The notes under the pieces: model-generated | The model's input: the letters and a program-made list of their open reading frames with translations, nothing else | Database searches by the model: none | What the model was told of the DNA's origin: nothing | Part shown: positions 46,198 to 63,700 of the stretch, in pieces | How positions within the stretch are numbered: position 1 is the stretch's first letter | Layout of the letters: every line of letters starts with the position of its first letter | Position numbers and translations under genes: made by a program | Origin: Methanoregula sp. | GTDB lineage: Archaea > Halobacteriota > Methanomicrobia > Methanomicrobiales > Methanospirillaceae | Direction: 5' to 3' | Assembly (NCBI GenBank): GCA_026625165.1 | Contig: CP112999.1 | Location: 806,001 to 870,000 of the forward strand | DNA: 64,000 bases

Positions 46198-46489
46198 GGC
46201 TCTGTAGAAATGCTTAGAAATCCCAGCTCTTAACGCTCTTTGGGGGAATTAATCGTCGCTGGAAAGCGAGGATTGATTGGAGAAACCATATCAATGGTTT
46301 CGACCTTTCTGCCGTTCACGCAGGGAAGGGCAAACTGAAGAAGATGTCCATCAGGATATCTTCGATATGCGACTGTAAAGGAGCACGAGAAGACATCTGT
46401 TGGGATGTCTTCGAGTTACATTGCTCCCGCCGCTATGGCATCCCCCATGATGCGATAGTAGGATAGGAGGTTTACTTGAATCTGTAGAA
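46198..46489. mobile_element. MITE copy 1 (GGCTCTGTAGAAA family)
   Basis: Begins GGCTCTGTAGAAATGC one base behind the stop of the upstream gene. The interior matches the copy at 56673 over about 250 bp, with hairpins GAAACCAT-ATCA-ATGGTTTC, GAAGATGTCC-ATCA-GGATATCTTC (46340-46363) and GAAGACATC-TGTTGG-GATGTCTTC (from 46389). The right inverted repeat is not preserved; only CTGTAGAA near 46481 remains, in direct orientation. No transposase, so mobilised in trans. Confidence 0.8.
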
Positions 46490-46599
46490 TAATCATTTTA
46501 ATCTGCATCACTTTTTTCTTTCCAATTTCAGGAACGGTATTTTAACACAAAATCCGTCGTTGATTTCGTAAAAAGTCAGGGGCAGGAATGGTATCTTAC

Positions 46600-46616
46600 C
46601 CAAAAAAAAAATTAAA
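46600..46616 (-). terminator. T-run terminator of DUF2769 copy 3
   Basis: The minus strand reads a run of about ten T just behind the stop codon at 46620, as at the copy 2 locus. Confidence 0.4.
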
Positions 46617-56425: not shown

Positions 56426-56672
56426 GACAGGAGGGGCGACGGCCGCAGGATCCTGATGATATTTTTAACCGGCCCGGCAGCCCGGTTGAGGTTAGCTCAC
56501 CATGCCCGTGGGGGTGACCGGTATTTTATACCCGGCATATTTCCGGAGGCTGCCGGCTTATGGTGAGAAGCGGTATGGTTTACATGACCCATCCGTCGCT
56601 TCTGGCAGGATTCGTACCACGGGGCGGATAAAAATACCGGTATTCACAAATCCAATTAAAAACGGATTTTTC

Positions 56673-56987
56673 GGCTCTGTAGAAATGCTTAGAAATTTCG
56701 GCTCCTAACGCTCTTGGGGGAATTAATCGTCGCTGGAAAGCGAGGATTGATTGGAGAAACCATATCAATGGTTTCGACCTTTCTGCCGTTCACGCAGGGA
56801 AGGGCAAACTGGAGAAGATATCCATCAGGATATCTTCGATATGCGACTCTAAAGGAGCACGAGAAGACATCTGTTGGGATGTCTTCGAGTTACATTGCCC
56901 CCGCCGCTGCCGCATCCCCCAAAATGCGATATCACTGGAACAAGTTGGGGCAATATGGATAATAGAAACAAGGTTTTCTACAGAGCC
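56673..56987. mobile_element. MITE copy 2, complete, with target duplication
   Basis: 315 bp bounded by GGCTCTGTAGAAA and its inverse TTTCTACAGAGCC, and flanked on both sides by GATTTTTC (56665-56672 and 56988-56995), an 8-bp target duplication. Inside are GAAACCAT-ATCA-ATGGTTTC, GAAGATATCC-ATCA-GGATATCTTC (56814-56837) and GAAGACATC-TGTTGG-GATGTCTTC. The GG-CTCT ends with 8-bp duplications fit ISL3-family (less likely IS256-family) transposition in trans. The open frame inside has a stop in copy 1 and is not a gene. Confidence 0.88.
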
Positions 56988-57045
56988 GATTTTTCATAAA
57001 ACAGCGGAGGATGTACCCCATACAGGGGTTATCATGGCCATCCCC

Positions 57046-61349: not shown

Positions 61350-61411
61350 GGTACCACAGGAATTACCTGCACGTTTCGGGATAAATGTGTTTTTCACAAA
61401 AATCTTTTTTC

Positions 61412-61729
61412 GCTCTGTAGAAATCATCGTTTTTCATAACGTTCTTGGGGGCGTTTGCCATTCCCCGCAGGGAAGGGCAAACTGGAGAAGATGTCCTGAT
61501 GGACATCTTCGATATGCGACTGTAAAGGAGCACGAGAAGACATCTGTTGGGATGTCTTCGAGTTACATTGCCCCCGCCACTGCGGCACTAAAAAAAAGGT
61601 CTGACGACCATTTTTACGAGTCCACCATCCTTTAAGGATAGCAGACATCCCCCCTTGCGATATCCGTCGAAAACCGGTATATCATGGGTCTCTGGTAATG
61701 AGGTGAGATCAGGGATTTCTACAGAGCCC
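61412..61729. mobile_element. MITE copy 3, diverged
   Basis: Starts GCTCTGTAGAAA and ends TTTCTACAGAGCCC, flanked by CTTTTTTC on both sides (61404-61411 and 61730-61737), an 8-bp target duplication. The left interior is shorter than in copies 1 and 2, but the hairpins GAAGATGTCC-TGAT-GGACATCTTC (61487-61510) and GAAGACATC-TGTTGG-GATGTCTTC are kept. The right part (61590-61720) is unrelated to the other copies, showing that the interior can exchange. Confidence 0.85.
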
Positions 61730-61985
61730 CTTTTTTCGCTCTGGCGCCTGTGTCCACCCGAACATGGGAACTATGCCCTTTTTTCATCTTCCCCGCATTA
61801 CATCCCGCCGTTCTGGTGCTGGTTGCCTGTCCGCAGTTAAACCTGCGAGGGGGATCGCGTTGTTATTGCAGATGATGTGTTTCTCCCAGAATAGAACGGG
61901 GCATGCGCATTAGGCCACCATATCGTATGAGAGCACAAACCGGATACCATACGGGCGATGCCCGGAGAAAAGGAGTGTGAAAATT

Positions 61986-63098: not shown

Positions 63099-63312
63099 AT
63101 GATGGCTCCGGTTTTGTTCATATGGGTCAGTTATAATTGATGGGTAATATACCATTAATACACCTGATTCTATGCTTTGTTCTCGTCGATCATTCCAGTA
63201 GAATTTTATTTCCAGATTTCGCAATAAAAAGTGCAGAAAAATTTCAACCGGTTTGTGAATTACTCTATTGATTTCTATAATCCAGTGATTGCCCCGCCCA
63301 GCGCGGCGCCTC

Positions 63313-63354
63313 GAAGAACTCATCAGAGTTCTTCTCAAATCAGCCCTTGCTGAT
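63313..63354. repeat. Two-hairpin palindromic element, reverse orientation
   Basis: GAAGAACTC-ATCA-GAGTTCTTC (63313-63334) followed by TCAA and ATCAGC-CCTT-GCTGAT (63339-63354). Read on the minus strand the order is short variable hairpin, spacer, GAAGA-type hairpin, the same as in the relE insert. Confidence 0.65.
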
Positions 63355-63555
63355 GCAACGGTCTATACTCCCTTATCGCGCGGCAGGCCGGTCGGTTTAT
63401 CTCAAAAATGATAATCTGGTATTTTTCACTTGATTTTAAAAAACCTCTCAAAACATGCCTTATAGCGTAAAACCCGGCGAGGCGTTTTGCACTTAGGTGT
63501 ATCGTAAATGGGGAATGCCACTGCGGCAGGGGCGAAGACTGAGTGGTCTGTCAGT

Positions 63556-63700
63556 ACCACGAAGATGAGAAGAATTCGTCAGAGTTCTTCGAATTATCAA
63601 ACCACGAAGTGGTGAGAAACGAGAATATTCAGAAAGAATCTTCGAATTGTCGAACCACGAAGTGGTGAGACTGGAGAAGAACTCATCAGAGTTCTTCGAA
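63556..63700. repeat. Tandem cluster of three two-hairpin palindromic units
   Basis: Units start with ACCACGAAG at 63556, 63601 and 63654 (45, 53 and 47 bp). Each has a short hairpin ACCAC-GAA-GTGGT (partly deleted in unit 1), GAGA spacer, and a GAGAA..TTCTTCGAA hairpin whose inner bases vary (GAATTC-GTCA-GAGTTC; ATATTC-AGAA-AGAATC; GAACTC-ATCA-GAGTTC). Short ORFs through it are low complexity. The rest of 63099-63854 has nothing else I can identify. Confidence 0.7.

Follow-up and report, generated by a model that had tools for sequence, protein, structure and literature searches.

The window, i.e. the whole stretch of 64,000 nucleotides that was analyzed, comprises positions 806001-870000 of a single-contig archaeal genome of 2.17 Mb. 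It harbors three copies of a short repeat, all in forward orientation. Copy 2 (56673-56987) is an element of 315 bp belonging to subtype A. Its left terminal inverted repeat (TIR), GGCTCTGTAGAAA at 56673-56685, also occurs on a 1009-bp IS5-family element, and the right TIR occupies 56975-56987 on the minus strand. The target site duplication (TSD) GATTTTTC borders the element on both sides (56665-56672 and 56988-56995). The interior contains three double-hairpin units on the plus strand. Unit 1 (56721-56775) consists of hairpins B1 (AATTAATCGTCGCT/AGCGAGGATTGATT) and A1 (GAAACCAT/ATGGTTTC), unit 2 (56781-56839; 67.8 bits with the covariance model R1) of hairpins B2 and A2, and unit 3 (56840-56888), which measures 49 bp, ends in hairpin A3 (GAAGACATC/GATGTCTTC). 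This 49-bp unit also appears in tandem repeats within the genome copy at 1299609.

Copy 1 (46198-46457), likewise of subtype A, has lost its right end, and its right part was replaced by another repeat. Its double-hairpin unit lies at 46307-46365 (plus strand, 65.4 bits). The segment which follows the truncated copy (46430-46610) matches the region at 1110166 of this genome with 87% (locus L072), and from approximately 46430 a match of 93% over 182 bp was found to a locus (L234) of the relative G006. Copy 3 (61411-61728, 318 bp) represents a second subtype, B, with a different subterminal sequence. It carries a unit at 61453-61512 (plus strand, 79.6 bits) composed of a hairpin B and the hairpin A GAAGATGTCC tgat GGACATCTTC, directly followed by a 49-bp unit at 61513-61561. 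A right-hand site of copy 3 is occupied by an inverted unit on the minus strand (61592-61646) with an A-like hairpin (AAAAAAGGTC/GACCATTTTT) and a B-like hairpin (GTCCACCATCCTT/AAGGATAGCAGAC); the sister copy at 1885758 contains an inverted unit at the same position, again on the minus strand. Two further double-hairpin units lie outside the three copies, one at 63311-63366 (minus strand, 29.4 bits) and one at 63649-63699 (plus strand, 30.1 bits), the latter being preceded by similar tandem hairpins. Near the end of the window, tandem units outside the three copies extend over 63540-63700.

The original prediction had described three copies within 16 kb with GGCTCTGTAGAAA-type ends, two of them with perfect 8-bp duplications. 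Such ends are indeed located at 46198, 56673 and 61411, copy 1 retaining the left one only. The perfect duplication holds for copy 2, whose ends are likewise perfect, whereas the octamers next to copy 3, TCTTTTTT (61403-61410) and CCTTTTTT (61729-61736), agree in 7 of 8 positions; the perfect duplication CTTTTTTC of copy 3 lies off its right end, the canonical ends being 61411 and 61728. All three copies are present, but they are only part of a family which spans the genome and the genus. The pairing of the stem originally noticed, that of hairpin A2, was confirmed: it reads GAAGATATCC/GGATATCTTC in copy 2 and GAAGATGTCC/GGACATCTTC in copy 3, both arms being changed, while GAAGATGTCC/GGATATCTTC of copy 1 contains a G.T pair. 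A point absent from the original prediction is that the loops of copies 2 and 3 are exact reverse complements of each other (atca and tgat).

A modular MITE family and its candidate mobilizer

The window contains five matches to GGCTCTGTAGAAA-type ends, with 1.04 expected. A genome search revealed 24 matching pieces across this genome; the end sequence CTCTGTAGAAA was found 25 times and its reversed control not at all. In genomes of the Methanoregula group 60 elements of 125-462 bp combine 13-bp GGCTCTGTAGAAA-type TIRs with 8-bp TSDs, for which up to two mismatches were accepted, although many are perfect. Matches to the core of the element were obtained in seven of the eight genus genomes. 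The two TIRs differ by 1.37 mismatches within an element, compared to 1.69 after re-pairing of ends, a comparison based mostly on one genome. No transposase is encoded inside the elements, the longest listed open reading frame within copy 2 having 82 amino acids. The repeats, which are short and multicopy and possess TIRs and a TSD of fixed length, are non-autonomous transposons (MITEs), as originally proposed. A literature search on MITEs of Methanoregula yielded nothing relevant.

Folding and the cataloguing of hairpins revealed a modular anatomy. The MITE core of approximately 143 bp comprises GGGGG...GCCCCCGCC and a second C-run. In longer elements double-hairpin units, each with hairpin B followed by hairpin A, are placed inside the GGGGG/CCCCC loop, and in some elements an inverted unit occupies a second site before the second C-run. 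A unit is 50-60 bp long and consists of two hairpins, namely B, which measures about 28 nt and contains a purine-purine mismatch, and A, which measures about 24 nt. Five subtype-A copies of this genome, otherwise near-identical, differ at a single site by having 0, 1, 2, 3 and 6 units; copy 2 is the three-unit form. Element lengths are stepped near 143, 206 and 265 bp.

Among the 60 elements with TIRs and TSDs, 26 are only 125-156 bp long and have no double-hairpin unit. Since these unit-less elements keep their ends and duplications, the hairpins are dispensable for transposition. The original prediction had considered that the fold might be needed for excision. The position of the hairpins inside the element and the conservation of their fold would agree with such a role in excision or transposition; considering the unit-less elements and the occurrence of units outside MITEs, we regard it as very improbable. 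In the draft genome G006 (loci L210-L257) about 50 core matches were observed, many of them without any unit. Elements of this draft possess variant ends such as GGCTCTGGTGAAA, the left and the right end of an element agreeing with each other.

The 1009-bp IS5-family element is present in seven near-identical copies in this genome. It has MITE-type ends and an 8-bp TSD, which is perfect in several copies. Its frame of 317 codons matched NF033579 (IS5 family) with 216 bits, as well as PF01609, and the nearest relatives of the transposase are annotated as Methanoregula. An ISL3-type partner had been anticipated; the element with matching ends encodes an IS5-family DDE_Tnp_1 protein instead. Because the element shares its ends and duplication length with the MITEs and resides in the same genome, its transposase likely moves the MITEs in trans, as judged by sequence. 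The near-identity of the copies of the 1009-bp element, whereas the MITEs have diverged, counts against this assignment. Moreover, only three of the eight genus genomes yielded the transposase, and a search of the MITE-rich drafts G001, G002, G005 and G006 gave no relative of it. The transposase frame (L036:1608-2561) has no stop codon before the right end of the element, and in different copies it runs to differing lengths into the flanking DNA. Two mini-elements of 93-94 bp with the same ends were observed at 1231740-1231832 and 1368359-1368452 of this genome (contig C1; loci L040 and L044). The right end of the 1009-bp element is the source of both.

Covariation, loop inversions and the fold of the units

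A covariance model of the unit was built and run over 232 genomes of the order. This model was also used for the alignment since consensus folding of a MAFFT alignment misaligned the variable stems. In the resulting alignment of 124 units 93.6% of the cells pair, and double-change cells number 375, compared to 96 in shuffled and at most 89 in slid controls. Although this alignment had been fitted to the structure, the hairpins are local features, which were initially recognized independently of it. Tested over these 124 units against a tree-based null, as had been suggested for the family, 7 of 22 stem pairs covary at E<0.05, compared to 0 among the 1574 other column pairs. The covariation is real but is no proof of a functional RNA.

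The units might be a structured RNA, or an element borne on mRNAs, for example in 3' processing or stability, that hitch-hikes in MITEs and whose stems covary by selection on the transcript. In a selected transcript G.U pairs are expected to be far more tolerated than A.C pairs on the transcribed strand, and 30 tRNAs of this genome gave a G.U:A.C ratio of 11:2. For the units the corresponding cells were 108:57 with the forward model R1 and 99:71 with the reverse-complement model R2, an excess of only 1.4-1.9 fold. After collapsing contexts the ratios were 64:35 for R1 (p=0.005) and 56:46 for R2, the latter not being significant. The slight excess of G.U in the orientation of the unit may indicate some selection at the RNA level; it was not relied on because it is smaller with R2. 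The strong covariation, the conserved mismatch and linker bases described below and the presence of units outside MITEs in two genera would also suit an RNA. Against it speak the absence of any matching family in an Rfam search, the occurrence of both unit orientations within one element, the lack of a sense bias towards genes and the abundance of unit-less elements. Consequently, the structured RNA of the original prediction was not substantiated, and we consider an RNA function of the units quite improbable.

The loops offer another source of arm matching. Footprints of template switching combine paired changes of both arms with an inversion of the loop (PMC8794818). When A hairpins sharing an arm were compared, the two loops were exactly reverse-complementary in 3 of 33 pairs, with 0.33 expected; 7 of 5000 shuffles reached as high a value, the number of inversions being small. 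In copies 2 and 3 the reverse-complement loops sit on different arms. Such loops suggest that one arm was changed with the other as template. Could template switching by itself account for the covariation, the fold being unconstrained? The loop inversions, the nearly strand-symmetric mismatches and the matching of arms in very different sequences would all be explained. Nevertheless, a mismatch between the outer and the inner stem of hairpin B is kept in most units (G.G 68, A.G 18, G.A 2 and A.A 1 among 118 units), with differing inner stems and in two genera. The linker bases hardly vary, one linker A being present in 117 of 118 units. Blind copying from arm to arm would not leave a mismatch, and its retention across different stems suggests that the fold is under constraint besides templated copying. 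Template switching as the sole cause is therefore quite unlikely in our judgment.

We conclude that the repeats probably constitute a modular MITE family whose DNA hairpins are arm-matched mostly by template switching and are partly constrained in their fold; the evidence calls for no stable RNA product. The resident IS5-family transposase would move the MITEs in trans. Their core of approximately 143 bp takes up tandem arrays of double-hairpin units in its GGGGG/CCCCC loop and often an inverted unit elsewhere. Unequal recombination or slippage may alter the number of units, which ranges from 0 to 6, in the manner of BOX elements. Most of the arm matching would arise when one arm is copied onto the other during replication, which would flip the loops as well, and an added constraint would keep the DNA hairpin folded. 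The family provides a warning: strong, tree-corrected covariation together with loop flips occurs here in mobile DNA without evidence for a functional RNA. This caution bears on the use of covariation as a basis for calling non-coding RNAs.

Units outside MITEs

With the covariance model, 24 units were counted in this genome and over 100 throughout the genus; eight sister-genus genomes gave further matches. At E<=1e-4 no unit was found in the remaining 217 of the 232 order genomes, which include one genome of the same genus. About 50 of the 124 units have no TIR nearby, and several reside in a second repeat family of approximately 450 bp that is rich in G- and C-runs. Copies of this intergenic family (loci L375, L373 and L383), which is full of G-run/C-run hairpins, are 76-81% alike. 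The flanks of standalone units showed a pairing of 7.29, compared to 6.03 (sd 0.29) after shuffling; for an RNA these paired flanks would make a three-way junction. By crude gene calls and in small numbers, standalone units lie mostly in gaps between convergent genes, and codirectional gaps revealed no sense bias (3 sense, 4 antisense).

Units outside MITEs leave room for a double hairpin that moves by itself, an ultra-short mobile entity entering the loops of other hairpin repeats, with the MITE as merely one host. Its presence in the MITE core, in tandem, inverted at the second site and in unrelated G/C-run repeats, its frequent position beside G-run/C-run stems and its detection in just two genera of the order are consistent with such mobility. 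However, no candidate enzyme was recognized, and recombination between repeats could shift units among hosts. The Y1 (HUH) transposase PF01797 is absent from the eight genus genomes, while the control was positive in 5 of 14. A derivation from REP/RAYT or IS200-IS605 elements was rejected for the lack of a Y1 transposase in the genus. We regard an independently mobile hairpin as conceivable, though rather unlikely. Also unlikely is its more elaborate form, in which a mobile two-hairpin module of about 55-60 bp would enter G-run/C-run loops of unrelated repeats including IS5-type MITEs, its stems diversifying by template switching and its mismatch and linkers being kept for a recognition factor.

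Relation to known systems

Several known repeats share features with the modular MITEs favored here. REP and BIME sequences are small imperfect palindromes of high copy number which are intergenic, often between convergent genes. The Methanoregula units have these traits in common with them and differ by the missing Y1 (RAYT-type) transposase. The double-hairpin elements of fungal and algal mitochondrial DNA look mobile and are very short, each combining two hairpins with matched arms and lying within other repeats. The archaeal units resemble them in these respects; in contrast, they reside in a chromosome and ride, at about 59 bp, in a DDE-type MITE. As with IS5-family insertion sequences and their MITEs, the ends and the 8-bp duplication are the same in both partners. 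The interior of the Methanoregula MITE, however, is not derived from the insertion sequence; internal sequence in common with the latter is limited to the two 93-94 bp derivatives.

The ends of pneumococcal BOX elements are constant and IS-like, the inner modules number from 0 to n, and the transcripts fold (PMC3049150). Like BOX of Streptococcus pneumoniae (PMC3049150), the Methanoregula MITE is non-autonomous and has IS-like ends; its outer parts are constant, its tandem inner modules fold and vary in number, and in both cases the inner module is dispensable. The partner of BOX is ISSpn2, whereas that of the Methanoregula MITE belongs to the IS5 family and the host is an archaeon. In the Methanoregula family, unlike in BOX, the module comprises two hairpins whose stems covary strongly; it is found in either orientation and, in addition, beyond the MITE. 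Single genomes offer a graded series in which the units of the covarying hairpin module range from 0 to 6. The likeness would extend BOX-like modular MITEs to the archaea. Judged by its organization, and not by boxA, boxB or boxC sequence, the Methanoregula family appears to work like BOX, the closest known kind of element.
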